This document shows, piece by piece, positions 879-47,461 of a DNA stretch of 47,622 nt (the first letter of the stretch is position 1; every line of letters begins with the position of its first letter). A program made the position numbers and the translations under genes. The DNA comes from a virus, in the IMG/VR virus record IMGVR_UViG_3300047359_000583, positions 1 through 47,622 of that record; one strand, written 5' to 3'. Below the pieces are notes generated by a model. It did no database searches. It saw nothing but the letters and a program-made list of their open reading frames with translations, and had not been told where the DNA came from.

Positions 879-3794
879 TTACCAAGCGTAATCAAAAGTT
901 TCAATTTTAGATATTTGATCCTTAATTGTTTTAGCGTAATTTTTAGCTTCTCTTTCGTAGTAAGATTCAGATTGTCCATATCTTTCTTCAGATTCTTCAC
1001 CCTGTCTAATGTAATCACAATATCTAGAATAGTTATCTAAAATATTTGACATGTGATTAGAAGCATCTCTTAATTTAGCTTCTCTACCTTTAGAGTTTTC
1101 TCCTATTTTAATTTCATCATATCTAGTTTTATTACCACTCGACAATCCGGCTTTAATTTGTTCTGCTAATTCATCAATAGCCTTTTCAACCATTTTATCA
1201 ATTGGTAAAGAAGCTGCCTTGGTAGCTAAAATTTGGTGATATCTGTCTGCGTTAGCTTTCTTAAAAGCTGCATCATCTGTAAATGCAGTTGCACCTTCTT
1301 TTGCTCTTGCTCTGTCACCTCTTAAGTTTTCAGTAGAATACTTCTGTCTAATTAGATCTAAGCTTACAATAATAACTCTATCAGAAACTTCTGCAATTCT
1401 TTTACCATTACTTAAACCAGAAGCACCCCAGCCTCTATATTTCTTGTTTACACCAACTTGATCTGCAGAACCTTTTCTACCATCTTTTTTCCATGAAGTT
1501 GTCTTAGCCCATCTAGACCAGTCGTTAGTATAAAATTCTCTATCACCACCCATAGCTGCTAATAAACACCCGCCACCTGGAATTGTGCTCATTGCATTGT
1601 ATGACCTAGAATCCTGTGGTAAATATGGATTCTCTTTTTCATTATCTGAAATAAAGAAAATAATATTTTTAGAACCACCATGGTTTTTAAATGCTTTTTG
1701 TGGGTTATTGTCTAAAATAAAATCTTCATCTTGTATTTTATCAAGGGCAACTTTAGTCAGTTGGTAAAAACCACCTGCTAATCTAGCTACGTTTTTTCTA
1801 GCGTGTTTTCCTTCTTGGTTACTTTGTAAAATACCTGATAATATAGCACTAGATATTTTTTCGTTTAATACGTTATATTCTGACTCAGTAGTAGCTGATT
1901 CTTCGATAAAACTAGCTAAATGTCCATCATCATCCCATCCGTATTTAGAATCGGCTAAAACAGCTTCAATATCTTTTCTTTTTCCAGTTAATTCAACTTC
2001 TGGATGTCCTCCTGCTGGGCCAATCTCTCTTAATACTTTTAATTCAACTTTGTGTTTCTTTAAAAGTTTTTTAAGTCCTTTTGATTCAGGGTCTGTAGCA
2101 TCCATTATTACAGTAGCTTCACATAATTTTTCGTCTAGCCTATCAAAGAAGTCAAAGTGTTCACTTTGTAAATCTTCACCATACTTTTCGTCCCATATTT
2201 CAGCTAATTCATATTTAGTAACTTTACCTTTATACTTATCCATGATTTCAACATAGATACTACCATATTCATATTCAAAATCTTCACCATAAGAAAGATC
2301 CCATGCCTTTTCAATATCTTTAAATGTAAGCTTTTTGGCTTTGGCTTCAGTAACTACTGATTCTTTTACGAAATTCTTAAGATCATCTGGATCTATAGAG
2401 TATTCTACGTCATCCTCGTCACTTCTAAGAACAACTTCATATTTACTTATGTCCCAAATCTTAAATTCGGCATCTTTATTAAGAGTAGATCCATCTACGT
2501 CGTTAGTTATATCGTAAACATCTCCATCAAAATCATCGCTATGGACTGTAGTTTTAATCTTTTGGCCTTTTTTAAATTTAGCCTCGTTAATAGATTTGCT
2601 TGAGCTATTAATAAAGCTTGCAAATGATTCATGTAAAAATTTATTATTCATTTTTTTTGTATTTTTATTTGTTACTTTATAAGTTTTACCATCGAATTCA
2701 AATTCTTCGCTGCCCTCTTCAATTGCTTTAGCTCTTGCTCCTAAAAATGCGTTACCTTCTCTAACATTATCAGCAGATTCAGTATATAGGTTTACATAAT
2801 TTCTACCTTTTTCAGAGTAAATTGAAGTGATTTTAAATTCACCATCAATTTTCTTACCAGTATCTTTTTTATAGTATTTAGCATAGTAAGCTTTAAAGAA
2901 TAAGTTTGGTTCTAGTTCTCCAAAGAAGTGTGTCATTTTACCCATAAAGAATTTAGCAGATGGATAATAAGTTGTTATATCTGCTTTGGTTTCAGCATCT
3001 AAAACACCTTTATCGAAATCTTTTACAAATTTAGCTTCAGTAACTACTGATTCTTTAACAAGAGAATCTGCGTCTATTGCTATTTCACTTGAAAAAGTCT
3101 TTAAACCATTAACCACAATCATACCATCTTTTTGTATACGAGTAACTTCACCTGAATCGAATGGTTTTTTAGAACTTCTGCTTAGAATAGAAACTTTATC
3201 TCCTACTCTAAATTTAGCTTCAGTAACTACAGATTCTTTAATTCTATACTTTTTCATTAAAGATTCAGCATCATCAATTGCATCTTGTAATTCTTGATCG
3301 CCCAAATCTGCCCAGTATTCAGATCCTCTTTCTCCGTCTAAATAATTCTGAGATATTTGTTCCCATTCATTTTCTGCTTTTCTATCATACATTAAAATAC
3401 TATCAAGGTCTCCGATTCTGTCTACAAGAGCGTTAACGCTATAATTTCTATTATCAGAGCCAGCCATTGGACCATATTCATTAAGTTCTTTAGACTTAGA
3501 AGTTTTATTTAGCTCACCAAGAATTTTAATACCCCATCTCGAAAGTGATACACCATCTTCAGATACATTAAAGTATTTTTTATTTCTAGATTTCCATTGT
3601 TTATGATCTCCGGAAAGTTCAGAAATAATTTTAGTAAATTCTTCTTTAGTAATTACACCATCTTTAATAGCCTCAATAACTGAATTTCTTACACTAGCCG
3701 TTTTACCAACAGTCCTTGCTGGATGGCGTTCTGTATATTTTCGTTTAAGTGTTAGTTTTTTACCTTCACTCAAGAATTCATTAAATTTTTTCAT
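879..3794 (-). CDS. Giant cargo polyprotein with repeated prohead-protease-like sites
   Basis: 971 residues. It begins MKKFNEFLSEG, a T4-type capsid-targeting motif. The peptide ESVVTEA recurs at residues 187-193, 248-254 and 478-484, with variants SINEA (401-405), LCEA (557-560) and ESATTES (632-638). All fit the T4 gp21 prohead protease rule (hydrophobic, any residue, Glu, then cut before a small residue). Cutting would give pieces of about 192, 61, 151, 79, 76, 78 and 334 residues. The pieces starting KFRVGDKV (194) and KFKKGQKI (406) look like small SH3-type barrels. Met382 begins an internal targeting-like segment, MNNKFLHESFASFI. The segment around 566-625 (GHPEVELTGKRKDIEAVLAD) is also found in the 690-residue protein. 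The C-terminal 334 residues match no family I know. Cleavage and packaging are inferred. Confidence 0.8.
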   Translation of the reverse strand: MKKFNEFLSEGKKLTLKRKYTERHPARTVGKTASVRNSVIEAIKDGVITKEEFTKIISELSGDHKQWKSRNKKYFNVSEDGVSLSRWGIKILGELNKTSKSKELNEYGPMAGSDNRNYSVNALVDRIGDLDSILMYDRKAENEWEQISQNYLDGERGSEYWADLGDQELQDAIDDAESLMKKYRIKESVVTEAKFRVGDKVSILSRSSKKPFDSGEVTRIQKDGMIVVNGLKTFSSEIAIDADSLVKESVVTEAKFVKDFDKGVLDAETKADITTYYPSAKFFMGKMTHFFGELEPNLFFKAYYAKYYKKDTGKKIDGEFKITSIYSEKGRNYVNLYTESADNVREGNAFLGARAKAIEEGSEEFEFDGKTYKVTNKNTKKMNNKFLHESFASFINSSSKSINEAKFKKGQKIKTTVHSDDFDGDVYDITNDVDGSTLNKDAEFKIWDISKYEVVLRSDEDDVEYSIDPDDLKNFVKESVVTEAKAKKLTFKDIEKAWDLSYGEDFEYEYGSIYVEIMDKYKGKVTKYELAEIWDEKYGEDLQSEHFDFFDRLDEKLCEATVIMDATDPESKGLKKLLKKHKVELKVLREIGPAGGHPEVELTGKRKDIEAVLADSKYGWDDDGHLASFIEESATTESEYNVLNEKISSAILSGILQSNQEGKHARKNVARLAGGFYQLTKVALDKIQDEDFILDNNPQKAFKNHGGSKNIIFFISDNEKENPYLPQDSRSYNAMSTIPGGGCLLAAMGGDREFYTNDWSRWAKTTSWKKDGRKGSADQVGVNKKYRGWGASGLSNGKRIAEVSDRVIIVSLDLIRQKYSTENLRGDRARAKEGATAFTDDAAFKKANADRYHQILATKAASLPIDKMVEKAIDELAEQIKAGLSSGNKTRYDEIKIGENSKGREAKLRDASNHMSNILDNYSRYCDYIRQGEESEERYGQSESYYEREAKNYAKTIKDQISKIETFDYAW
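2337..3240 (-). repeat. Three DNA copies of the ESVVTEA-coding repeat
   Basis: About 25 bp recur near-perfectly at roughly 2341-2366, 3031-3056 and 3212-3239. On the plus strand the shared core is GCTTCAGTAACTACTGATTC, with a single A-for-T change in the third copy. Each encodes KESVVTEAK or FVKESVVTEA in the 971-residue protein. The near-identity of the DNA, not just the peptide, suggests recent duplication or gene conversion of module ends. Confidence 0.85.
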
Positions 3795-3796
3795 GT

Positions 3797-4192
3797 TTAT
3801 TTAAGTTTTTTTAATATACCGTCTATTTCTGTATATGAGCAATTTGCACCCTTAACTATAAATGATCCATAAGAGATTGAAAGGTTTGCACCTTCACCTC
3901 CAGTTTTTACTTGAGTTTTATATGCTTCTTCTATAGATGCTTGATCTTCAGCAACAGCAACAACTTTAGGTCTAAATCCAGCGCCTACATTATGATCGTC
4001 TAAAGATCTTAAATGCATTTGTTCTCCATTAACTTCTACTGTATTATGTAGTATTAATGCAAAGTGGGTTTCACCCTTACCAGGTAAATCAAAACCATCA
4101 AATGCATATTTGCTAAAATAATATGATCCGAATTTTATTTTTTCATTTACTAAACTATTAGTAAATTCTCCAAATGTTTTTGTATTTTTCAT
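3797..4192 (-). CDS. Small probable internal capsid protein
   Basis: 131 residues. The N-terminus MKNTKTFGEFTNSLVNEK combines the M-K-x-x-x-F-x-x-F targeting pattern with a gp21-like site (L-V-N-E at 14-17), so a mature product of about 114 residues starting KIKFGSYYF is predicted. The rest looks like a compact mixed alpha/beta domain with a conserved-looking RSLDDHNVG segment; the family is unknown. It lies 2 nt upstream of the 971-residue gene and 17 nt downstream of the 617-residue gene, in the same transcription unit. Confidence 0.75.
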   Translation of the reverse strand: MKNTKTFGEFTNSLVNEKIKFGSYYFSKYAFDGFDLPGKGETHFALILHNTVEVNGEQMHLRSLDDHNVGAGFRPKVVAVAEDQASIEEAYKTQVKTGGEGANLSISYGSFIVKGANCSYTEIDGILKKLK

Positions 4193-6065: not shown

Positions 6066-7367
6066 TTATCTACCGTATTTAATAATTCCCATTAATTGAT
6101 TAATTGCAGCAAAAGTTCCAGTTAGTTTATAAGTATGTCCTTTATATCTAAATACAAGGCCTTCGGTTGGTATGATAGATTCAATACCTCCAATTCTATC
6201 TAAACGTTCTAGTTCTTTAGCTACTTTATTTATCTGAGTTATATCTCCGCCCTTTTTAATCTTATCAGCTTCTGTTCTAATTTGATTATGCAGTCTCTGC
6301 ATTTCTTTATCTGGATTTGCAGCCACAAAGTTAGAAGCGTTCTTTAAGATAACAGAACCTAATTCTAAGAAAAGATCTTCAAAAGGTCTAATATTTTCTT
6401 TATATTTCTTTTTAACATCTTCTTTGTCAAATCTTTTAACAGCAGCTGCTTCATCTTTTCCTATTTCCTTTGCAAGACTTCTTAGATTAAGTGTTTTCTT
6501 ATCTCCATAAGCCCATCTTAATAATAAGCCTTCTTTATAGTCTTGTTGTAAATCGGGGAAGTTTTTATCAATAGTTTCTCTCCACCACATTTCATGATAT
6601 CTAGAAACCTCATCTGCATCTGTTAATCCATAACGATCTCTTAGCGCTTCAACCTTTTTTATAAACTTAAGTTGGTTCTTTTCAAAATCAATATCCTTAC
6701 CTATCTTAATAATTTGTGGTGGAATAACTGTAAAGACTTTACCAATATTAGCGTTAACTTTTTCTAAAGCAGCAGCAATTGATTTACCGTACTTAGGCTC
6801 TTCGCCAATTATATTACCATTACCATCTGTTATTTTAATTCCATGAAATTGAATAACGTCTCTATCATAATAGATAACATTTGGGTTTTTAGAGTAGATA
6901 AGCTCCATGTTCATAAAGTTCTTACCATTATCAAATGCTTCTAAATCTTTATCAGATAACTTGACTAGAGAAGTTGCTAAATCTTTAGCAGCAAAAATAT
7001 AAGTTTCTTCAACTAATTTTGATGCATGTCCAGTAAACATATCGATAATACCATTAAGGTCTAATGGGTTTGCCATTTGTCCTTTATTTCTAGCAAACAT
7101 TGCTTGGCCATCCTTTACAGTGACAAAAAGATTTTGCCCATCAGTTTTTTCAGTAGGCTCTTCTTCAAAATTAAGTTCACCGCTAAGTCCAGATTGGATT
7201 AATTTTTTAAAGTCTCCAAATGTTAATTGTTTATTATCAAATGGATGTGACATGTGTCCTGCGGCACCACCTTCAAGTATTAAAGCCTCATTAACCGAAA
7301 ATGAAGGAGCCTCTTTCAAAGTCCTTCTTTCCAGTACAAATTCTCTATAAGATTGTAGTTTTTTCAT
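6066..7367 (-). CDS. RNA-ligase-like nucleotidyltransferase with capsid-targeting start
   Basis: 433 residues. The covalent nucleotidyltransferase (ligase / capping) motif I is visible as EKTDGQN, with Lys74 as the expected adenylated residue and KxDG intact. FMNMELIYSKNP looks like motif III, KEGLLLRW (278-285) is motif IV, and the Lys-rich DKKTLNLRSL that follows fits motif V. The expected activity is ATP-dependent ligation or end-joining of nucleic acid, most like phage RNA ligases. The N-terminus MKKLQSYREFVLERRTLKEAPSF is a targeting-type sequence, with gp21-like sites at LKE/A (19-20), VNE/A (27-28) and ILE/G (32-33). The mature enzyme would then begin near residue 33, just before the catalytic domain. 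It starts 1 nt after the stop of the 690-residue gene and ends 2 nt before the 617-residue gene. Confidence 0.75.
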   Translation of the reverse strand: MKKLQSYREFVLERRTLKEAPSFSVNEALILEGGAAGHMSHPFDNKQLTFGDFKKLIQSGLSGELNFEEEPTEKTDGQNLFVTVKDGQAMFARNKGQMANPLDLNGIIDMFTGHASKLVEETYIFAAKDLATSLVKLSDKDLEAFDNGKNFMNMELIYSKNPNVIYYDRDVIQFHGIKITDGNGNIIGEEPKYGKSIAAALEKVNANIGKVFTVIPPQIIKIGKDIDFEKNQLKFIKKVEALRDRYGLTDADEVSRYHEMWWRETIDKNFPDLQQDYKEGLLLRWAYGDKKTLNLRSLAKEIGKDEAAAVKRFDKEDVKKKYKENIRPFEDLFLELGSVILKNASNFVAANPDKEMQRLHNQIRTEADKIKKGGDITQINKVAKELERLDRIGGIESIIPTEGLVFRYKGHTYKLTGTFAAINQLMGIIKYGR

Positions 7368-7368
7368 A

Positions 7369-9441
7369 TTATGCTAGTGATGATTGTAAAATTCCTGCAC
7401 ATTTTCCGTAGTCACCATCGCATTTTTTTAATATGCCGGCAACAACCTCGTCTGCTTTAGCCTCATCAAATTCTTCTCCAAAAGCTTTTTGTAATACTTC
7501 GTATGCGTATTCTTTAAAATCTTCTTCAGATTTAATTTCAGCCTCGTTTACAGATTCAAAAAGAGAATTAAAATCATCTAATAAAGATTGTCCCATTCTT
7601 TCTTCTTTAAGCTCTTGTAAAAATAGAGCAGTTCCTTCAACAATCCCTTGGCCAGACCATCCTGCCGCATTAGCGATATCTGAATAGTATTTGTCTAGAA
7701 TCCTTTTTAAAGTAGTAGTTCCTAGTTTTACAAAGTGTCCACCTAGACCTGGTAACTTAATCTCTAAAGCCGCCATTTTACCTTTAATGTTTCTAGAAAC
7801 AATTTTTTCTCTATGGAAGTTAGCGTCTGTCATTGCTTCTTCAAAAAGATATTTAACACAACCTCTAATAGACTCATGAGACATTGCACCAAAATCTGGT
7901 AAAGTCTTATAGAATATTTTCTTATATTGTGTAACTACCTTTTTAGCATCTCTTTTGCCGTCAACTTTAATAGCTTCATTAACTACTGATTCATTGCACA
8001 TTGAAACTAATTCTTGTGCAATCTTTTTTGCTTTAGAACCTTTATGTCCATAAGATTCAACTGTATCTAAAGCATCTTCCATTTCCATGCCATGTAATTC
8101 TCCCATGTCTCCTCCTCTTTCATCTAAAAGATCCTGTAAGATATTTTCAGCTTCTGATTCATTAACTACTGATTCAAAATAATCTTCATAGTCAGAGATT
8201 GAGTCTGGTCCCCATACATCAGCTAAAACTTTTTCGATATCTTCTCTTTTACCGGTTAATTTAACTTCTGGGTAACCGTGGTCACCTTCTTCTTTTTGAA
8301 CTTTCATTTTAACTTTATTCTTCTTTAAAGATGTAGTTAAGGGTTTAAATTTAGTTGGGTGTATATCGTCATCGTTTCCAAATTCTATACCCGAAAGAGA
8401 TGTTTCATTAACAACTGATTCAAAGGTTGATGATGGCATTAGTTCTTTATCGCCATATATGTCTGCTACCAACCAATTTTTATTCTCTTCATCCCATAAA
8501 TAAACCCACTCAGCGCCGGCTCCATTTGAAACATCATTTAAATATTGGTCTACTTTTTTATATTGTCCTGTTGTTTGCATGTCACCGCTTTCACCACGAT
8601 CTCTTCCGTAAAAAATAGTATAACCTCTAGTCGGATTAGAAAAACTATGTTTCTTACCTATTGATTTATCTAAAAATGAAATACCAGCCTTTCCTAATTT
8701 CATTAATTGCTTAATGTCACTTTCGCTATATCCTTTTAACATTGGTAGCATGTGCTCTGGGTAACCATCAGAATGTACGTATGTTGATGTGATTTTACCA
8801 CTCTTACTAAGAATACCAATTTGAGATCTAGTTGATTCGTTAACCGCAAGCGACTCAAATGCTGGAACTAACTCTGCGTTTCCGTCTACATGTAGCATAT
8901 ACCATTTACCATCTCGCTCGTCAAAAAGATAAACATATTCTGCCCAACCAATATCTTCTAGATATTTAGACATGTTTTTAATCTTTCCTTTTTGATTTTC
9001 CATGTCGCCATAGTAATTCATATACCTTGGGTCTTCTTCTAATCCAGAGCTACCTCCATTTTTAAGAACCATGTTTAGTGGCGAACCACCCTTTAAATAT
9101 GTCATCTTAATAAGTGGTAACATTGCTTCTGGATAAGAATCAGCATGTGTGTATACACTTTCTATATTACCTCTTTTGTCTATTTTACCAAAATGGCCTC
9201 TAGTGGCTTCTGTTAGTAATAAAATAGACTCATTAAGGCCTAAATTTTTTAACTTGTCAAAAAATTCAAATCTTTTTTCTTCTTCTAATTCTTTTATTCG
9301 AGTTACTCCATATTCAGATAAAAGTTCTTTAAATAGATCTGCTTCGTTAGATCTTTTAGCGTTCTGTTTTTTCTCTAATGCAACAGTATCTTTTTCATGT
9401 TTTGCTGCAGAAAATTCAGCAAATGAATTTAATTTCTTCAT
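7369..9441 (-). CDS. Second cargo polyprotein with ESVVNEA sites and duplicated module
   Basis: 690 residues. It begins MKKLNSFAEFSAAK, a targeting-type start. Protease-like sites recur: ESILLLTE/A (71-79), ESLAVNE/S (196-203), ESVVNE/T (341-347), ESVVNE/S (423-429), ESVVNE/A (484-490) and ESVNE/A (629-634). They would give about seven pieces of 57-144 residues. Pieces 79-202 and 203-346 are diverged copies of one module: each starts with G-x-I-x-x-x-G-x-I-x-S, has Y-x-H-(A/S)-D-x-Y-P-E-x-M-L-P, and ends with a W-(A/V)-Y-(L)-x-D-E region. Piece 347-428 shares the PEVxLTGKRxDIExVLAD segment with the 971-residue protein. Biochemical function of the pieces is unknown. First gene of the cargo block, 32 nt after a GATATATA box. 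Confidence 0.8.
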   Translation of the reverse strand: MKKLNSFAEFSAAKHEKDTVALEKKQNAKRSNEADLFKELLSEYGVTRIKELEEEKRFEFFDKLKNLGLNESILLLTEATRGHFGKIDKRGNIESVYTHADSYPEAMLPLIKMTYLKGGSPLNMVLKNGGSSGLEEDPRYMNYYGDMENQKGKIKNMSKYLEDIGWAEYVYLFDERDGKWYMLHVDGNAELVPAFESLAVNESTRSQIGILSKSGKITSTYVHSDGYPEHMLPMLKGYSESDIKQLMKLGKAGISFLDKSIGKKHSFSNPTRGYTIFYGRDRGESGDMQTTGQYKKVDQYLNDVSNGAGAEWVYLWDEENKNWLVADIYGDKELMPSSTFESVVNETSLSGIEFGNDDDIHPTKFKPLTTSLKKNKVKMKVQKEEGDHGYPEVKLTGKREDIEKVLADVWGPDSISDYEDYFESVVNESEAENILQDLLDERGGDMGELHGMEMEDALDTVESYGHKGSKAKKIAQELVSMCNESVVNEAIKVDGKRDAKKVVTQYKKIFYKTLPDFGAMSHESIRGCVKYLFEEAMTDANFHREKIVSRNIKGKMAALEIKLPGLGGHFVKLGTTTLKRILDKYYSDIANAAGWSGQGIVEGTALFLQELKEERMGQSLLDDFNSLFESVNEAEIKSEEDFKEYAYEVLQKAFGEEFDEAKADEVVAGILKKCDGDYGKCAGILQSSLA

Positions 9442-14697: not shown

Positions 14698-15072
14698 TTA
14701 AATTCTTTTACCCATTGCAGCACCAAGAGCGGCACCAACTAATCTGGAAGTTAATAAATCGTAAAAAATACCTTTTTGAATTCCTAAAACTTTAGCAATA
14801 ACCTTTCCAATTGATTTACCTAATGCAAATCCAGCTAAACCACCTATAATAGAACCTAGAATACCTTCATTAGTCATCTCTTCATTTAAACGATCTAAAT
14901 CATAAGTACCATCCTTTCTTTTATATTCAGCTTCAAATGCTTCAATAGCCGCATCTACTTCAGCTTCTAATTCTGGAGTCCACTCTTCTTGTAAGCCCTC
15001 TTTGACTAAAGAATAGTCCTGCTCACTAATTTCGTTTTCTACTAAATAATCGTTAAATGTTTTCATATTCAT
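14698..15072 (-). CDS. Targeted internal protein with glycine-zipper tail
   Basis: 124 residues. The N-terminus MNMKTFNDYLVENE fits the capsid-targeting pattern, and SLVKEG (21-26) is a possible prohead-protease site. The middle is acidic. The C-terminal part (about 69-124) is a glycine-zipper-like hydrophobic segment: GILGSIIGGLAGFALGKSIG, then a second stretch VGAALGAAMGKRI. Such segments often insert in or pack against membranes. A packaged, membrane-active protein could take part in DNA entry, but this is inference. A GATATATAC box lies 15 nt upstream. Confidence 0.7.
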   Translation of the reverse strand: MNMKTFNDYLVENEISEQDYSLVKEGLQEEWTPELEAEVDAAIEAFEAEYKRKDGTYDLDRLNEEMTNEGILGSIIGGLAGFALGKSIGKVIAKVLGIQKGIFYDLLTSRLVGAALGAAMGKRI

Positions 15073-15664: not shown

Positions 15665-18130
15665 TTAAAGAAGATTGTCGTTTTTAAAATCATCAGAGCT
15701 AAAACCAGTATTTTGGCCTCTAGCACCACTTCCTCCGCCGCCGCTTCTACCGCTTCTAGGTGATTTTTTAGGATTTCCATAACTACTTCTATCCGGTTCG
15801 TATTGTAGAGGAGGTCCTTTTACAAAGTTAACTCCAGAAGGCCCGACTTTAACAGGCTTTACATTATCTTTAGGATTTACAAATTTTGGACCCGAGTTCC
15901 CTTTAATTGAAGCAGTTGCTCCAGTTTCACTTATAGACGCCACCGACGGTGTTGGTGGTAAATCTTCTTCAGCTACAGTTCCAGGATCTTCTGGCGCTGG
16001 CGTCGGTGCCGGTGTCGGCGTTGGCGTTGGCGCCACATCTGGCGTTGGTATTGGTTTTGGTGTTGGTGCTACCGGAAGGTTTGCAACCCATCTACCACTT
16101 GTAATCATAGTCTCATCAGTACCATTATCCATACTTATATAAAAAGTTCTAGAACGAAGGCCTCTAATAGCAACTGCATTAGCTTCACTTAATTTAAAAA
16201 GAACTTCACCGTCTCCCATATTAACAGACTTATCTATTATATGATTAAATTTTAATTTATTTTTACCATCGACAAACGATAATACAATATTTTCTACATT
16301 ATTTAAAGGTATATTAATAATATCACCAGTTTTATTTTTAGCTAATTTAAACTTTAAATAAGTACTGAATGGCGGTATTACAATCAATAAGTTAGCACTT
16401 GAAGTATAAGGCTTACTATCAACTTCTTCTAATCCACCTTCTACTTGTTGCATTCCACTTGAGCCCACAACAACGTTATATCTTTCTATAAATGCCGGAA
16501 CTTTTTTAATACTTCTAGCTGGCATCATATTAGAAATTAAACTACCTACTTTTCTATTAGTTGAAATGTTAGGAAGAATATTATAAACCTCAGTTAATGT
16601 ATTGTTACCATTAATGTTTACCTTCTGCAATCTTTTACCGTATCTACCAGCTTGTGCAGTTGTTATGCTAGCTCGTTTTACTATTTGTGTATTATCAGTT
16701 TGATTCCAAATTCTCATAGTTACATCTATTGAAAAATTAACTGCAACGTTTGAATTAATTATAACAGGTCTAAAAACAATAGGAGTATCAAAATCTTCAT
16801 ATTGTGAATATGTTGTACTAAATGTTTTAATATTAGAAACACCTACTTGTTCAAAAACATCAACATCAAACATTACCATAATATCATCACCGCTAAGTTG
16901 AATTTTATCTAATAAGTATCTTTCAAAACCAGCAGTACTTCCATCTCTTTCACCATATAATCTAAAATAATCTCCGTCAGTAGCATCTTCAACCACTACA
17001 GTAAAATCTTGAAATTCATCTTCTCTAGAAATAGTAAATTTATTTTCTTCAGCAGTGTGTATAAAATCAAATTCAGTACTTGACTCTATTCTAGAAATCA
17101 ATTTAAAATTAATACCATAATTACTATCTGCTTTTAAATCAGAAGAACCTATAGATCCATCTCCAAAAAACCTATTTAAAAACTCTGTATTTTGGTTAAC
17201 TAAAGTAGGAACTTTAACTTCGATAAATTTAGCAAATAAAGTTTCTCCTAAAACAAAAGGCCTAGGATTAGCTAATTCGTAATTAGATGAGTTTAAATAA
17301 ACTAATTGTGTAAGATTATTTTCTACACCGGATTCTCTTTCTGCTAAAACTTGAAATAAAAACCCTTCATAACCCCTAGATGCAAAACTATATCCACTTC
17401 TTAAGTGTAATCTAATAGTATCATATTTAATATAATTAATATTAGCAGTGTTGTCTACTTGAGAATTTAAAACATCAGTTTCATTAGAACCATTCCAGTT
17501 TGGATTATTATTTAAATAATTATAAGCATCGTATGCTCCAGTAGAATCATAACCAATAAGTGCATATCTATTCGCGTCATTTAAATGTTTAACTGCGTGA
17601 AATCTACCTAGTATTTGATTTATATCATTACCTGCATTTTCATCTGGATTTGCAAAAAGAGGGTTAGCCCTACTTGCTACTGTAATTTTACCACCAATTA
17701 AATTATCTGCTTTATATTCAACTTGTCCATTCTGAGTTGGTGTATAAGTTGCAATATATGTCACTGGTGAATAACTATAAACACCCAATGCTCCTGTAAT
17801 TTCAAAACTAGATTGCTCTGCTAATGATAATCCAGATAAATCAAATTTATAAGTTTTACCATTCTGTAAAAGAAGAGTTCTTCCAGCAAAATTTTCTATA
17901 GACAAATAACCTGATGCTGAAGTAACATCAAAGTTAACCACGTTACCACCCAATTCACTTATTAGGTGTCTTTTTTGTGTAGAGTCACCTTGTACTGTAT
18001 CTATAAATTTAACTTCACTACCATTGTCATCTACTTCTATCTGATATGCAGAAGGATTACTTTGATCGTGATAGATAAATTCAATTAGTACGTCGTTATC
18101 TATTCTATAATATGCTGAAGATTGTGCCAT
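15665..18130 (-). CDS. Large tail or baseplate protein with Pro-Thr linker
   Basis: 821 residues. Most of the protein appears to be beta-rich domains of virion type with no recognised family. Around residues 686-715 there is a low-complexity linker of alternating Pro and Thr/Ala. The last ~60 residues are basic and Gly/Ser-rich (SGRSGGGGSGARGQN). A similar Pro-Thr linker occurs in the S74 fibre gene 0.8 kb away, which suggests both project from the virion on flexible arms. The gene is adjacent to the tube-like gene (13-nt gap). Confidence 0.6.
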   Translation of the reverse strand: MAQSSAYYRIDNDVLIEFIYHDQSNPSAYQIEVDDNGSEVKFIDTVQGDSTQKRHLISELGGNVVNFDVTSASGYLSIENFAGRTLLLQNGKTYKFDLSGLSLAEQSSFEITGALGVYSYSPVTYIATYTPTQNGQVEYKADNLIGGKITVASRANPLFANPDENAGNDINQILGRFHAVKHLNDANRYALIGYDSTGAYDAYNYLNNNPNWNGSNETDVLNSQVDNTANINYIKYDTIRLHLRSGYSFASRGYEGFLFQVLAERESGVENNLTQLVYLNSSNYELANPRPFVLGETLFAKFIEVKVPTLVNQNTEFLNRFFGDGSIGSSDLKADSNYGINFKLISRIESSTEFDFIHTAEENKFTISREDEFQDFTVVVEDATDGDYFRLYGERDGSTAGFERYLLDKIQLSGDDIMVMFDVDVFEQVGVSNIKTFSTTYSQYEDFDTPIVFRPVIINSNVAVNFSIDVTMRIWNQTDNTQIVKRASITTAQAGRYGKRLQKVNINGNNTLTEVYNILPNISTNRKVGSLISNMMPARSIKKVPAFIERYNVVVGSSGMQQVEGGLEEVDSKPYTSSANLLIVIPPFSTYLKFKLAKNKTGDIINIPLNNVENIVLSFVDGKNKLKFNHIIDKSVNMGDGEVLFKLSEANAVAIRGLRSRTFYISMDNGTDETMITSGRWVANLPVAPTPKPIPTPDVAPTPTPTPAPTPAPEDPGTVAEEDLPPTPSVASISETGATASIKGNSGPKFVNPKDNVKPVKVGPSGVNFVKGPPLQYEPDRSSYGNPKKSPRSGRSGGGGSGARGQNTGFSSDDFKNDNLL
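15991..16072 (-). repeat. Pro-Thr coding hexamer repeat in the 821-residue gene
   Basis: The plus strand is a run of GGNGTN / GGYGCY hexamers, encoding alternating Pro and Thr/Ala on the minus strand. It is far more GC-rich than the surroundings and shares its repeat unit with 19288-19371. It could expand or contract in six-base steps without breaking the frame. Confidence 0.7.
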
Positions 18131-18966: not shown

Positions 18967-21471
18967 CTAAACCATTGTTGTATTTAATTGTATTTGTTTA
19001 AATTCTACATCTAATTGAGAATAATCTACACGATCAAATCCATCTGCATGTTTAATTACAGCATTCTCAGGAATTTCATCAGACATTACACCTTGGAATA
19101 ATCCAACTCCGTGTACTAAGTCCTTATATTCAAAACTATATATGTTTAACCCACTTGGCGATTCACCAATTTTAGTTATATTCTTCTTTAATCTTCTATC
19201 AGACGTGGTTTTTGTTGGGCTGGTACTGCCTGGTGAGACTAGAGGAATTGGCGACGGTGATGGTGTTCCTGGTGGAGATACTACGATCGGCGTTGGTGTT
19301 GGTGTTGGCGTCGGCGTTGGTGTCGGCGTTGGTGTTGGCGTCGGCGTCGGTGACGGAGACGGATTAAGTACAACAGGGTTTTTCGGCCCCGGCGTCACTG
19401 GCGCTGGCGTCGGTACCGGTGACGGCGAAATAGGCGATGGTGATCCTGGAGTCGGCGTTATTATCTGAGTATTACTTAATGTTTCATTATAGGTTGCTAA
19501 TCTTTCATTTTGATTAAAAACTTCATAAGATTTATCATTCGTTGGATATGTAAAGTTATAATACAACATGACGGCATAAAGGCCATCAGGTGTTGTAGTT
19601 TTCCAATCAAAATCCTCAACATTTAAAAAGTCAGCCTCTATCTCATCTGCTAACAGCACCCCTGGAGTTGATCCGAAAACAGTAGATTGATTTTCTTCAC
19701 CAAAACCATCGTTAATTACAATTGTTGTAGGCTTTTTCTTAGCTATGTTAAAATAATTACCACCTGGCGGTATTGCACCCCAATATTCTTCGGTGTAATT
19801 ATCTTCGAAACCATCTGTATTTTTAAAACCATCTATTTGAATCATTATTGGAAATAATATCCAATGTGCCGCGGCATTTCTATATGGCCAATAGATTGGT
19901 GATGGGAAAACAGCTACCCTACCTTTTATGTTTTGAGCCATTTGTGAGCCACTTGCAGGCGTATTGTCAGCACCATATTCTCCATTTAAATTCATACCAT
20001 TACTATAATGGATAGTATTTAAAGGTGCTGGCATGTAATTTATTTGACCCGATGCTGTAACTTGGTGGCCAATTTTAGTATATGTAATTTTACTTTTTGA
20101 AGGTCTTATTGCCATCCTAAGTGCTTGTGCATTAACTAATGTCTGGTTTTGGTTACTAACTTTTTTATGTACTCTAAATTGATTAGTAGATGTTAACCAG
20201 GTAGCATCAAGAAATCTAACCCATGAGTTAGATGCAAATGCAGAATCAGTATTACCATCTAAAGCAAGGTCACCAAAATCTGAAGTTGTACTAGGTTGAT
20301 AAAAATAATCATCAATTCTTCTTTGGCTTTTAGGAGTACCTTCATTTGGCGCGTCTAATTCGCCAGCGCCTAATGAGCCACCTTCATCTGCTTTATACAA
20401 AATACCACGACCGGATTCATTAATTTGCAAATCTCCTAGCAGCTCTGTAGTATTTTTAATAGATATTGCATTATCAGTAGTTGAAAAACCATCACCTATT
20501 GAAACATTTACTGAAACTAGTTCAGTTCCACCAGCATACATTCTTAATACATCTTCATCAGGTGCTTCTTCTGCAGTAATATAAGTATCTTGATCGGCAT
20601 CAATTAATCCACCTAAACCTCTCCAATCAGAACCATGTCGACCCTCAAATTGATCAGTATCAGTATTAAACCTAATTTGACCCTGGTTGGTATCTAAAGT
20701 TCTTTCGGCAGTAGTACCAGCCGGCAGGCGAATTGACGAAGTATTCGTCCAAACAGATTTAGCATAAAACAAAGTTTCAAGATCAAATTCCACGTTATGT
20801 ACATTAAGACTGTTAACCGTATCATGAAATTTAATAACGCCATTCCCTGGGTCTATATCTATAGTTAACCCTTGTGAACTTAATTGTATATCATTTTCAG
20901 CTGAAAGATTAATGCTATTTACAGCGATTTGAAAAGCTAATTCACTTGTAGCAGATCCAAAATCTTTTTTAAATCCAAAAGTATCAACGCTATTTATTAT
21001 ATCGTGAGTAAAATTTAAAACTTTATCTGGTGCAATTCTAAAAGATTTAAAATGATCATACTCTCCTGGATCTAATTCTAACGTAATTCTAGCATTTGCT
21101 GTAGTTTCACCAGTAAGATCTTGTCCAGAACCACCCTCATTAAAAGTTGAATCTCCAAGCCATAAGGCTGACGCACTAGCGTCTCCATCTAATTTTGGTT
21201 TAAGTATATGTGAATTATTTGAAACATTAGTTACGCGCTCCCATGGAGTATCTGAGACTCCAGGATCACCTTGGTCACCTTTAGTTCCAATTTCACCCTT
21301 TTCACCTTTAACACCAGTTGCACCTTCGGCACCTTGTTGTCCCTTAATTCCTTGTATACCCTGTGGACCTCCTCCATTAATTAAAATTTGATCAAAGTTA
21401 TAATTGATCTTTTCAAACTTTATAGAGTCTGAATCGCTTGGGTGTAAAATCTCTTTTATATTGATTGCCAT
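18967..21471 (-). CDS. Tail fibre with collagen-like repeat and S74 chaperone domain
   Basis: 834 residues. Residues ~33-72 are a collagen-like Gly-X-Y run (GPQGIQGIKGQQGAEG and on). The middle is a long beta-rich shaft. Residues ~703-729 are a Pro-Thr linker. The last 78 residues (757-834) are a peptidase S74 intramolecular chaperone starting SDRRLKKNI: Ser757 and Lys762 have the spacing of the catalytic Ser-Lys pair of the endosialidase family. The chaperone would trimerise the fibre and then cut itself off just before Ser757, leaving a mature fibre that ends after the Pro-Thr arm. It is the best candidate for a receptor-facing protein in this window. Confidence 0.85.
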   Translation of the reverse strand: MAINIKEILHPSDSDSIKFEKINYNFDQILINGGGPQGIQGIKGQQGAEGATGVKGEKGEIGTKGDQGDPGVSDTPWERVTNVSNNSHILKPKLDGDASASALWLGDSTFNEGGSGQDLTGETTANARITLELDPGEYDHFKSFRIAPDKVLNFTHDIINSVDTFGFKKDFGSATSELAFQIAVNSINLSAENDIQLSSQGLTIDIDPGNGVIKFHDTVNSLNVHNVEFDLETLFYAKSVWTNTSSIRLPAGTTAERTLDTNQGQIRFNTDTDQFEGRHGSDWRGLGGLIDADQDTYITAEEAPDEDVLRMYAGGTELVSVNVSIGDGFSTTDNAISIKNTTELLGDLQINESGRGILYKADEGGSLGAGELDAPNEGTPKSQRRIDDYFYQPSTTSDFGDLALDGNTDSAFASNSWVRFLDATWLTSTNQFRVHKKVSNQNQTLVNAQALRMAIRPSKSKITYTKIGHQVTASGQINYMPAPLNTIHYSNGMNLNGEYGADNTPASGSQMAQNIKGRVAVFPSPIYWPYRNAAAHWILFPIMIQIDGFKNTDGFEDNYTEEYWGAIPPGGNYFNIAKKKPTTIVINDGFGEENQSTVFGSTPGVLLADEIEADFLNVEDFDWKTTTPDGLYAVMLYYNFTYPTNDKSYEVFNQNERLATYNETLSNTQIITPTPGSPSPISPSPVPTPAPVTPGPKNPVVLNPSPSPTPTPTPTPTPTPTPTPTPTPIVVSPPGTPSPSPIPLVSPGSTSPTKTTSDRRLKKNITKIGESPSGLNIYSFEYKDLVHGVGLFQGVMSDEIPENAVIKHADGFDRVDYSQLDVEFKQIQLNTTMV
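19288..19371 (-). repeat. Pro-Thr coding GGYGTY hexamer array in the fibre gene
   Basis: On the plus strand this is about 13 hexamers of the type GGCGTT / GGTGTT / GGCGTC, giving a Pro-Thr run on the minus strand. The synonymous third-base variation shows it is not a perfect microsatellite. The plus strand has many GG steps and could form two-tetrad G-quadruplexes. Confidence 0.8.
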
Positions 21472-44193: not shown

Positions 44194-44256
44194 AAAATAA
44201 TTACCAAATAATTTTTTTATGTCAATTATTTTTATTATATTAGTACTGTAATTAAA
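44194..44256 (+). promoter_or_regulatory. 63-bp promoter-like cassette, copy 3 (plus strand)
   Basis: AAAATAATTA, a 24-nt core, then ATTTTTATTATATTAGTACTGTAATTAAA. Compared with copy 2 it differs at only a handful of positions over 63 bp, and even the core (TTTTTTTATGTCAAT) is shared. The ATG of the 72-residue gene follows 11 nt downstream, the same distance as for copy 1. It is the only such cassette on the plus strand, and it precedes the only plus-strand genes. Confidence 0.65.
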
Positions 44257-44267
44257 AACTAATAGAC

Positions 44268-44486
44268 ATGCAAAACGTAAAAAACTTACTTCAGAATTGG
44301 AAACATGATTTAGCACAAGCTGGCGAGTTAATGGGAACCGATCTCGAAACACTTGATACTCGAGGGTTTAAAAACTTAGAGTTTCAAATTGAACAACTAG
44401 AATCTGCTATTAAAAAAGACGATCAGTCTAAAAGATGGGCAGAACAAGAAATGGCAGACTTTAATAATCATTTAGGAAGGTTTTAA
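44268..44486 (+). CDS. 72-residue helical small protein
   Basis: First of two plus-strand genes, 11 nt after the promoter-like cassette. The product is predicted to be almost wholly helical and acidic overall: LLQNWKHDLAQAGELM, then FKNLEFQIEQLESAIKKDDQ, a likely coiled coil. No family recognised. It is separated from the CCA-adding enzyme gene by 20 nt and probably cotranscribed with it, so a link to RNA metabolism or early takeover is possible but not shown. Confidence 0.7.
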   Translation: MQNVKNLLQNWKHDLAQAGELMGTDLETLDTRGFKNLEFQIEQLESAIKKDDQSKRWAEQEMADFNNHLGRF

Positions 44487-44506: not shown

Positions 44507-45664
44507 ATGAACTTACATAACTTCGCAGATTTTAAACTTTTAACAGAGGCTAAGAATTCACTTAAGATGAATGTGCCTTCTGATATATTAGATCTACATA
44601 AACTATTTAAAAAGAATGGTAAAGAACTTTTTATAGTTGGTGGTGCAGTTCGAGATGCGCTGCTTGGTAAGAAGCCAAAAGATTTTGATTTAGCAACAGA
44701 TGCCTTCCCGGCAGAAGTTATTGAAATAGTTACTAATGCAGGTTACACAACCACTGGAGAAGTTGGACATCAATTTGGTGTGGTTATTGTAAATGTACCG
44801 TCAGATCCAGCTGGAGTTGAGGTTGCAACATTTAGAGAAGATATTGGTAAAGGCCGAAGACCTGATGCCGTGGAGTACTCTACAATAGATAAGGACGTTC
44901 TAAGGCGAGATCTAACTATCAATGCATTATTCTATGACATGGGAACTGAAGAGGTTGTCGATCTTGTAGGTGGCTTAGAAGATATAAAGAATTCAAAGAT
45001 TAGAACTGTCGGTGTTGCTGCAGATAGATTTGCAGAAGATCCACTTAGAAAATTAAGAGCCTTAAGATTTGCTGGTAGAACTGGAAGTAAATTAGAAAAA
45101 GAAACTGCTGAAGCTATACTAACAGATAATAGTTTAGAAGGTATTAGTCCAGAAAGAATTAGAGATGAATTTAAGAAATCAGTAACGACTGCAAAGTCTG
45201 CTAAGAAATACTTGGAAATGGTTTCTGAATTTAAGTTATGGAATATTATGTTTCCGACATTACCTATTAGTCAAAAATTCGTTAACACAAATACTTGGTT
45301 AATTCAACTAACTCAATTATTTATGGCAAACGATACAGATCTTCTTAAGAAAGAAATGAATAAGGCTACATTTTCAAACGATGAAATTAGTGGAGTTATA
45401 TTCTTAAAGAACTTAATGGCATTTAATCCAGCCAATGTGTTTGATACACATAAGCAATTTAAAAATAGCGGACTTGATAAAAAGGTTATTTTAGAATTTG
45501 TAAAGATTAATAGACTAGATGCTAAAATGATTAAAGCCTTTTTTAAATACAAGCCATCTACAAATGGTAGAGATGTTATGAAAGAGTTTGGTTTAAAAGG
45601 ACCTGCAATATCTGATAAAATCAATCAAATAGAGGCTGATAAATTTAAAAAACTTTTAAAGTAA
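44507..45664 (+). CDS. cca: CCA-adding enzyme (tRNA nucleotidyltransferase) with targeting-like start
   Basis: 385 residues, class II polymerase-beta type tRNA nucleotidyltransferase. The catalytic head is intact: FIVGGAVRDALLG (42-54) and DFDLATD (59-65) give the GG and DxD metal site. GRRPDAVEYS, RRDLTINALFYD (133-144) and FAEDPLRKLRALRFA (175-189) are the template and nucleotide-binding motifs. It would repair or add the 3' CCA end of tRNAs, or add nucleotides to other RNA 3' ends. Unusually, it begins MNLHNFADFKLLTEAK, a targeting-like motif with a gp21-like LTE/A site (12-15). This hints that the enzyme is packaged, though it is on the opposite strand and under an early-type promoter. 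The C-terminal body is shorter than in many bacterial enzymes. Confidence 0.93.
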   Translation: MNLHNFADFKLLTEAKNSLKMNVPSDILDLHKLFKKNGKELFIVGGAVRDALLGKKPKDFDLATDAFPAEVIEIVTNAGYTTTGEVGHQFGVVIVNVPSDPAGVEVATFREDIGKGRRPDAVEYSTIDKDVLRRDLTINALFYDMGTEEVVDLVGGLEDIKNSKIRTVGVAADRFAEDPLRKLRALRFAGRTGSKLEKETAEAILTDNSLEGISPERIRDEFKKSVTTAKSAKKYLEMVSEFKLWNIMFPTLPISQKFVNTNTWLIQLTQLFMANDTDLLKKEMNKATFSNDEISGVIFLKNLMAFNPANVFDTHKQFKNSGLDKKVILEFVKINRLDAKMIKAFFKYKPSTNGRDVMKEFGLKGPAISDKINQIEADKFKKLLK

Positions 45665-45673
45665 GCTTTAAAA
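45654..45673. terminator. Bidirectional hairpin at convergent gene ends
   Basis: TTTTAAAG, loop TAAG, CTTTAAAA: a perfect 8-bp, AT-rich stem that contains the stop codons of both converging genes (plus-strand stop at 45662-45664, minus-strand stop at 45668-45670). It has A/T tracts on both sides, so it could end transcription from either direction, although the stem has only one G-C pair. Confidence 0.5.
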
Positions 45674-47461
45674 CGCAATTGGCACAAAACCAATCATTGG
45701 CACAAAAGGAACTGTCGGAACTGGAATACCTCCAAAATACAATAGTTTAAACTCTAACAAATGAAGTGCATAAACTGCTGCCAATGCAGTTGCTACTGTT
45801 AATGCCGGAGGTTGAGTTGCCGGTACCTTATCAAAACTTTTCCCACTATTTAACGCACGCCTAAGACCTTTAGCTAACCTGGTTTTACTTCCATAATATA
45901 TTGGAACATAAAATCCATTTAACGGCGGAACACTTAATGCTGGTGGCATAGGTGGGGAAGTTTTAAAAGGTTGTATTATATGTAAATACCAAAATGTAAT
46001 CGTGGCCTCTGCTAATTCTTCATAAGGGTCACCAGAAGGATATTGATACGGAATATCTGGAAGCTCTTCATTAGCATCACATTCTTCTGCTGCTTCTTTA
46101 GCATCAATGCCACTTTGTACTACAAATTTATATTGAGTCCCAGCATCCGGATGTGTTACTTTAGGTTCTAAAGTTTCAATTGTATCACTAGAACTTACTG
46201 GTGGCAGACCGTTCCATTTTTTCTTATATTCAAATTCTAAGTAAACATTTTTTGAATACTGTTTTGCTGCATTTGAGTTATAACTTGCATTGCTACTATT
46301 ATTTTTATATGAATACCAAATATTGTAGTTTGCGTAAATCCCAGAGAGCTCGTATGTAGTAGTTCTTTTAATAGCAGGATTATAAGAGAAGAAACAAATT
46401 ACATTTCTGTGTAGCAACACAGGCACCCCTGTCTTTTCTTCAGCTCCAACTTGTATTCTATATTTAGAAAGAGGACACTCTTCTTTTACATCAGGATCGT
46501 ATGGCCATGGAACTATTATCTCACCACGCAGGCCTGCTTCTAACCTTCCGCTAATATCTGAATTTAAATTTAAAATACCATTATTATTAGTCTCATATTC
46601 TGGATATGCAACATGAATAGCATCAATAAATAATTGAGATATATTGTCTATCATTTCAAATGCATTATATCCAGCATCTTCTATTCTACGCTTAACATCT
46701 GCATTTACATTCCAATATGGATAGTCACCTTCCGACTTAGACTGAAAATCAGGTGCGAAAAAATTTCTATGCGTTTTCTTATATAAAATACTACCTAATT
46801 TTTCTACCCACTTATAATATTCAATTTTATCTTCTATATCAGAGTAACTTTCAAACTCTCTAATCATTTTAGTTGCAAAAAGCTTCTCAACTTCTTCTTG
46901 TGGTTGACCATCTTCAATACAATGAAATTCGCTAAATAAAAAACTATGTAGATCCATATCATCATCGTCTTTATACTTTTCTATAAATGCATTAAATTTC
47001 TTTCTTTGCTTTTCAGCCTCTTCCATTTCATTAGGAACTTTTATCGGCTCCGGGCAAAGATCAGAAAAAGCTTCACTACTCTGTTTACCCTCTTTAATAA
47101 TATTACCATCTTCGTCCTTGGTGTCCATTAAGTCAACATCACCATCTCGATAAAGTCTTTCAAATGCCTCTCCGTATGCAAGTATTAATGCTTGGTCTGC
47201 TGCACCATTCGGCTGCCTCATGGCACCGACTGGAGTTTGTGCAGTTTTTACAGCTGCAATATATTCTGCTGCCAAAGCTTCACCCCAATCTCTTCTACCA
47301 CCTGGAGTTACAAATGGTATATAATCAGGTGTTGCGAAGTTTGGATTAGTGTCACTACCAATTCTAGGCGGGTCATTAGCAATAGAACCTGGATTTTTAA
47401 AAGATTGGCCAGATAATATTTCTGTAACATTAGGTATAAAAGTTCCCCAATTTGCTGGCAT
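45668..47461 (-). CDS. Virion protein, probable baseplate hub region
   Basis: 597 residues. The start PANWGTFIPNVTEILSGQSF and an early region (RRDWGEALAAEYIAAVKTAQTP) look like a conserved phage structural family, but I cannot name it. The middle is mixed alpha/beta. The last ~60 residues are Pro-rich and hydrophobic (TVATALAAVYALHLLEFKLL, then alternating Pro, Val and Phe), perhaps a membrane-interacting or hub-packing segment. It lies 2 nt after a gene whose end looks like a baseplate spike. That position suggests a hub or tape-associated role. Confidence 0.55.
   Translation of the reverse strand: MPANWGTFIPNVTEILSGQSFKNPGSIANDPPRIGSDTNPNFATPDYIPFVTPGGRRDWGEALAAEYIAAVKTAQTPVGAMRQPNGAADQALILAYGEAFERLYRDGDVDLMDTKDEDGNIIKEGKQSSEAFSDLCPEPIKVPNEMEEAEKQRKKFNAFIEKYKDDDDMDLHSFLFSEFHCIEDGQPQEEVEKLFATKMIREFESYSDIEDKIEYYKWVEKLGSILYKKTHRNFFAPDFQSKSEGDYPYWNVNADVKRRIEDAGYNAFEMIDNISQLFIDAIHVAYPEYETNNNGILNLNSDISGRLEAGLRGEIIVPWPYDPDVKEECPLSKYRIQVGAEEKTGVPVLLHRNVICFFSYNPAIKRTTTYELSGIYANYNIWYSYKNNSSNASYNSNAAKQYSKNVYLEFEYKKKWNGLPPVSSSDTIETLEPKVTHPDAGTQYKFVVQSGIDAKEAAEECDANEELPDIPYQYPSGDPYEELAEATITFWYLHIIQPFKTSPPMPPALSVPPLNGFYVPIYYGSKTRLAKGLRRALNSGKSFDKVPATQPPALTVATALAAVYALHLLEFKLLYFGGIPVPTVPFVPMIGFVPIAF

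Follow-up and report, generated by a model that had tools for sequence, protein, structure and literature searches.

The window analysed here, i.e. the whole stretch of 47,622 bp of DNA from a large marine virus of bacteria in IMG/VR, carries on its minus strand baseplate and neck-type genes together with uvsW-, primase-, SSB- and RuvC-like genes. On the plus strand, an ATG-initiated open reading frame (ORF) at 44507-45664 encodes a CCA-adding-type nucleotidyltransferase of 385 amino acids (aa). Upstream of this CCA operon lies a repeated promoter-like 21-nt element (44232-44252, +), present in three exact copies against 0.02 expected in the window; the further copies are found at 80-100 and 304-324, both on the minus strand, and all three are intergenic. 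It is this element that the initial annotation took for an early-type promoter, a putative assignment as regards timing. The small ORF of 72 aa (44268-44486, +) between the element and the enzyme is missing ahead of the CCA gene in L008-L012, where a near copy of the element stands directly upstream of that gene. Elsewhere in the window, GC-rich repeats with a 12-bp period are seen at 15992-16068 and 19264-19439, within two large minus-strand ORFs.

Concerning the enzyme itself, Pfam assigned PF01743 (PolyA_pol; 9.7e-33) to residues 41-166, i.e. the nucleotidyltransferase head domain (44627-45004, +), and PF12627 (PolyA_pol_RNAbd; 1.3e-07) to residues 195-252, and the same search found no further, unrelated domains beyond these nucleotidyltransferase parts; phrog_2244 was matched at 1.5e-57. 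The AlphaFold2 model, based on a 25-sequence alignment, has a mean pLDDT of 89.1, the sole segment with pLDDT below 50 being residues 1-16. The Pfam bounds and this segment thus place the first ~16 residues outside the folded enzyme, as the initial annotation had proposed. The top solved structures retrieved by Foldseek were CCA-adding enzymes, such as 6qy6 from Planococcus (E 5.4e-21), and the poly(A) polymerase 3aql was also matched (E 2.4e-17). The NCBIfam models for PcnB (187 bits, cut-off 306) and for CCA addition (PRK13299, 178 bits, cut-off 290) both scored under their cut-offs; from this split and the structural matches, CCA addition seems a likelier activity than poly(A) addition. The predicted mature CCA-adding-type enzyme would cover residues 15-385 (44549-45661, +).

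The segment preceding it, residues 1-14 (44507-44548, +; MNLHNFADFKLLTE, followed by Ala), resembles a capsid-targeting propeptide. It reads F6-A-D-F9-K-L-L12-T-E14/A15—a slash marking, here and below, an established or candidate cut—with F6 and F9 three positions apart, so that the x-x-F-x-x-F pattern and the L-T-E/A site reported in the initial annotation are both present in the sequence. The site L12-T-E14/A15 (44540-44551, +) is predicted to be cut by the prohead protease between 44548 and 44549, based on the motif recognised by gp21 of T4, which cleaves after L/I-X-E (PMC9026906), and on the position of [LIVM]xE in homologues. In the T4 internal protein IPIII, the first 10 residues alone are needed for head loading, targeting being governed by residues 4 and 7 and processing by residues 8 and 10 (PMC9026906). 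As read from NC_000866, the N-terminus of both ipII and ipIII is MKTYQEFIAE/A, and gp23 contains FGSFLTE/A. Proteins with a T4-type capsid-targeting sequence (CTS) have propeptides of 10-19 residues outside the mature fold, an aromatic pair with the spacing of T4 residues 4 and 7, and L/I-x-E; the window enzyme has 14 residues, F6/F9 (the first position being at times Ile across its clade) and LTE/A. The distance between the pair and the cut site, a feature not known to be essential, differs from that of IPII and IPIII, since F-x-x-F-x-x-LxE contains two residues more than Y-x-x-F-IxE; a pure T4-register tag is ruled out for the window clade by this offset. The two residues are extra also in relation to most tags within the clade, and in many other tags the Glu is followed by K, R or E.

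To follow the tag among homologues, 151 loci were gathered from IMG/VR scans and three named records, of which 139 have a recognisable core; the other 12, of which many are partial matches or lie at contig ends, were left out. Collapsing same-sequence loci reduced the 139 to 88 distinct N-terminal regions, 73 extended and 15 unextended. The tag, seen in a first scan in 15/15 IMG/VR relatives, is kept, at identities as low as about 45%, in all 22 distinct enzymes of the window clade, its form being [F/Y/I]xx[F/Y/W]-x-x-[LIV]xE-A; variants such as MQLKTFTEFQMVNEA, MIESYSNYTLLLEA, MALRKFNTYKLMTEA and MKLKNISEFKLVNEA retain the aromatic residue or Ile, the second aromatic residue, LxE and Ala. In the evolutionary tree of 87 rows, these 22 "aromatic-tag" enzymes form one clade (support 81/68) and six W01-type tagged enzymes a separate one (100/100); between polyprotein and stand-alone forms there are repeated switches, at least seven of them forced by the starred branches.

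The position of the candidate cut is constant. In 65 of the 73 distinct extended homologues, [LIVM]xE ends 28-30 residues ahead of the GG motif, against 5.3 expected when the segment is shuffled; the residue after the Glu is Ala at 29 and Ser at 16 of 66 sites. Fourteen of the 15 unextended homologues have their initial Met 26-33 residues ahead of GG, the fifteenth being truncated at a contig end. The extensions that meet at this common point are unrelated to each other: 14-residue tags, T4-register forms (MIHLTTLLAE/A, MIYLSTLLAE/S) and polyproteins in which as many as 1,372 residues precede the CCA core. Six of the eight exceptions are W01-type enzymes having KKYxxFLES or similar, with the FLES site at another distance from the core; L003 (from W03) has its own F-x-x-F-x-x-L-K-E-A tag plus a further stretch of ~75 residues, and the last one is L274. 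A constant LxE position in such unlike extensions is more easily reconciled with a maturation cut than with a simple label.

Tags are present also on CCA enzymes of other lineages, namely those from W01 (MILKKYKMFLES), W02 (MIITKYAKFLES) and W03 (MRTTFLEFMGLKEA), and the CCA frame of W04 has the aromatic pair with no LxE after it. The initial annotation had suggested comparing the N-termini of homologues; the comparison upholds the extension within the tagged clade and goes against it in other lineages, where 15 of the 88 distinct regions start at the core and the CCA enzymes of 9/9 sampled named phages—the T4-like V09 and AS-zj among them—are untagged. The tag is thus ruled out as a feature common to all phage CCA enzymes and, because core-start homologues occur only outside the tagged clade, represents a lineage trait. 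All matches in the phage collection were <60% identical, and no cultured close relative with proteomics was found there; for RaK2, the CCA enzyme is predicted and is not listed as a virion protein in the accessible part of the proteomics paper.

In order to see how widespread such N-termini are, the expression ^M.{0,9}[FYW]..[FYW].{0,3}[LIVM].E was applied to ORFs of at least 70 aa. It matched 6/31 ORFs in the window, where 0.14 (internal Met positions) or 0.17 (shuffled N-termini) were expected; among these six, the match in ORF 45668-47461 may be fortuitous. In the huge phages the tagged ORFs numbered 75/883 in W04 (LR756503, 735 kb; 8.9-10.4 expected; e.g. MIKxYxxFINE; loci L147-L183), 46/866 in W02 (LR756502; 7.1-8.0), 41/848 in W01 (LR745206; 6.5-8.0) and 19/884 in W03 (LR756511; 5.4-6.7). 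Counts in the records G001-G006 are low—9/237 (1.5-2.9 expected), 6/65 (about 0.5), 6/115 (0.9-1.1), 2/74 (0.4-0.7), 3/49 (about 0.4) and 5/40 (0.4-0.5), respectively—so that the support per record is weak for the small ones. Segments of the nine named CCA-bearing phages gave 2/304 matches. Among T4-homologous genes of the huge phages, 2/152 are tagged, both being the RNA ligase rnlA (W01 and W02), which is untagged in W03 and W04.

A Pfam scan of 35 W01 proteins (the CCA enzyme and 34 other tagged ones, 6 of the 41 matches having been excluded) revealed RNA ligase, CCA enzyme, a 2H/Acb1-like and exonuclease fusion, SMODS-associated NUDIX, DHH, guanylate cyclase and methyltransferase, many of the 35 having no Pfam match at all; a GH108 endolysin is also found among the tag bearers. 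In the fusion protein (LR745206, 448257-449573, -), a tagged 2H/Acb1-like domain is joined to a DEDD-type exonuclease; an injected anti-signalling or RNA-repair enzyme is a possible interpretation of it.

Several further window proteins, all encoded on the minus strand, bear the tag. The 971-aa product of 879-3794 (MKKFNEFLSE/G) contains 14 [LIVM]xE[ASG] sites, against a shuffle mean of 3.79 and a number reached in 0/500 shuffles; it is probably a protease-cut multidomain cargo protein. The segments of this protein were also seen to be separated by repeated cut-site-like motifs of the KESVVTE/AK type. Untagged window proteins, with 32 such sites versus 34.9 by shuffling, are not enriched, and neither are the tagged ORFs 6066-7367 and 380-859. 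The 690-aa protein at 7369-9441 has the aromatic pair only (MKKLNSFAEF) and eight sites, a number reached in 12/500 shuffles; FESVVNE and NESVVNE repeats were noticed between its seemingly duplicated domains. The remaining ones are a 159-aa protein at 380-859 (MKYVPTFESFIDDINE), in which a second tag-like stretch, MKHLKSFEAFNFD, occurs near residue 61 and perhaps reflects a fusion or a second start, a 131-aa protein at 3797-4192 with a looser tag (MKNTKTFGEFTNSLVNE) and a 124-aa protein at 14698-15072 with a glycine-zipper-like segment (MNMKTFNDYLVENE).

The tagged product of 6066-7367 (-; MKKLQSYREFVLE..., with NEALILE/GGAAGH), whose residues 1-39 are mostly disordered, links the window to the polyproteins. 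In blastp it is 38-40% identical to the C-terminal domains of two marine polyproteins, L260 (2318-7255, 1,646 aa) and L338 (5963-12274, 2,104 aa), each combining, in this order, a cytidylyltransferase-like part, HD, the CCA enzyme and this C-terminal ligase-like domain, with LxE sites at several of the domain borders. The ligase-domain border reads IITE/GGA, LLQE/GGA or LITE/GGA in the polyproteins and ILE/GGA in the window protein, and some homologues have no Glu there (ELLLMGGA). Invariant in the family are EK.DG, Glu155, EG and Lys414, which resemble ligase-superfamily motifs. The leading Foldseek matches are nearly all RNA ligases, the best at E 2.8e-3 and all above E 0.001, and Pfam, NCBIfam and PDB-sequence searches gave no convincing match; the designation "ligase-like" rests therefore on the motifs. 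A HELVH metallopeptidase-like motif was spotted by eye in L338.

The machinery needed for a T4-like head occurs in the same phages. Genes for Gp23 (PF07068) and the S77 protease (PF03420) are both present in all seven long records with window-type tags (G007-G013) as well as in G001, G003 and G005, i.e. in ten of ten long tagged records. Of the fusion-type records, G014 has S77 and G015 has both; both are found in G016 as well. The totals over records, many of which are fragments, are 6/10 and 12/24 for Gp23 and 6/10 and 10/24 for S77; the window, a genome fragment, was found to contain neither gene in its 47,622 bp. The S77 protease of the window clade carries a long fused C-terminal part with FANYLAE/S, YAEYIAE/S and YSEHLAE/S. 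A small tagged protein is encoded between the portal and protease genes (in G005, MKIITTFEQFVSEN), where T4 has gp67/68.

Could the tag instead direct proteins to the membrane, to a replication or translation compartment or to a chaperone that they share, with LxE belonging to the label instead of being a cut site? The number of bearers, up to 75/883 ORFs and of greater variety than the known cargo of T4 heads, some of them, like the endolysin, not obvious head cargo, speaks for it, and so do the varying P1' residues. It is nevertheless unlikely, given that LxE is fixed relative to the core across unrelated extensions, even with hundreds of polyprotein residues upstream, and given that LxE[ASG] is enriched in the tagged 879-3794 product and not in the untagged proteins; the tagged 6066-7367 and 380-859 show no such enrichment.

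An ordinary intracellular CCA enzyme, the extension of which would be neutral or regulatory and which would mature only phage tRNAs from a neighbouring cluster, is the other explanation to be weighed. In the sister phages G001 and G003, the CCA gene begins 94 bp and 40 bp, respectively, past tRNA clusters, and the encoded CCA is missing in 18/28 tRNA genes of G001, G003 and G004; a search of the 47,622-bp window found no tRNA gene. Many homologues do without any extension, and the promoter-like element before the enzyme is common to other short-gene units. As an exclusive role this is improbable, because it explains neither why a disordered stretch of 14 residues keeps F, F/Y, LxE and A constant while the positions between them vary, nor why unrelated proteins bear matching tags. 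The same cluster positions and tRNAs with no encoded CCA make an intracellular role likely with or without head loading, and they lend support to the dual use envisaged in the initial annotation. That a short, degenerate motif, matched by ~0.5% of shuffled window N-termini, arose by chance can be dismissed as scarcely credible in view of its conservation in 22/22 clade members.

Based on the above results, it appears, with a probability of roughly 0.7, that the window protein combines a CCA-adding nucleotidyltransferase with a T4-type capsid-targeting sequence and is loaded into the head as a protease-trimmed cargo and also made intracellularly. The head-targeting proposal of the initial annotation is well backed, as to tag and cut site, by the comparison of sequences, i.e. 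by the clade conservation, the constant cut point, the Gp23 and S77 genes and the other tagged proteins; searches of the open-licence PMC literature and the phage collection turned up neither virion proteomics nor data on cleavage or targeting for the window group. Residues 1-14 would bind the prohead core via the F6/F9 pair, and the S77 prohead protease would cleave after L12-T-E14 at head maturation, so that the mature enzyme would begin at Ala15. Retained in the head, this enzyme would enter the next cell along with the DNA and could there, ahead of phage gene expression, restore the 3' CCA ends of tRNAs that host defences or nucleases have damaged. It may be one item in a larger tagged cargo for RNA repair and counter-defence, and the same protein is probably also produced in the infected cell for the maturation of phage tRNAs.

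A broader proposal, for which we consider the odds to be even, is that huge T4-like phages use a general head-import code, in which a short lineage-specific tag would bring tens of accessory proteins into the prohead and S77 would free the mature enzymes. The cargo would include an RNA-repair kit—the CCA enzyme and the ligase-like enzyme, elsewhere HD, 2H and RNA ligase—delivered either in the form of separately tagged enzymes, the arrangement seen in the window, or within a single polyprotein cut by the protease; tRNA repair would then precede phage gene expression. CTS cargo of T4-like phages is already known as a kind; searches of open-licence PMC papers yielded no account of a CCA enzyme packaged in heads and no census of such tags in huge phages, and new relative to that literature are the CCA cargo, the scale on which huge phages tag their proteins and the cut point common to tags and polyproteins. 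If true, phages would carry tRNA-repair enzymes in the particle and could answer tRNA-cutting defences at DNA entry, before new protein synthesis; the head cargo of uncultured, mostly unannotated huge phages would become readable from the genome sequence; and the contents of giant heads, an old question, would become testable.

With regard to known systems, the window enzyme shares the fold and head-domain motifs of class II CCA-adding enzymes, e.g. Planococcus 6qy6, and differs from them by its removable-looking 14-residue N-terminal extension. With IPI, IPII, IPIII and Alt of T4 it shares the short N-terminal propeptide, the aromatic pair and the L/I-x-E/A cut (cleavage being predicted for the window enzyme), and T4 and the tagged relatives have in common the Gp23 and S77 genes and, probably, an injected cargo. 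In contrast to the T4 internal proteins, the window cargo would be an RNA-end-adding enzyme, there are two extra residues before LxE, and many proteins per genome are tagged. Polyvalent proteins (Iyer et al. 2017, PMC5512222) and P1 DarB are multidomain or N-terminally addressed proteins with head loading predicted or shown, the first 30 residues of DarB directing a reporter to the capsid (PMC9024508). The window enzyme is, unlike polyvalent proteins, a single enzyme; L260 and L338 do combine several domains and have prohead-protease-type LxE sites at the domain borders, while for polyvalent proteins zincin-like peptidases are stressed in connection with processing (PMC5512222), the accessible text of that paper not containing the term "CCA". 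Finally, head proteins of the giant phages phiKZ and SPN3US are cleaved after x-x-E by a relative of gp21 (PMC5694885, PMC9026906), but several of their propeptides exceed 100 residues and the phiKZ cut follows S/A-x-E, whereas the window enzyme has 14 residues and L-x-E.
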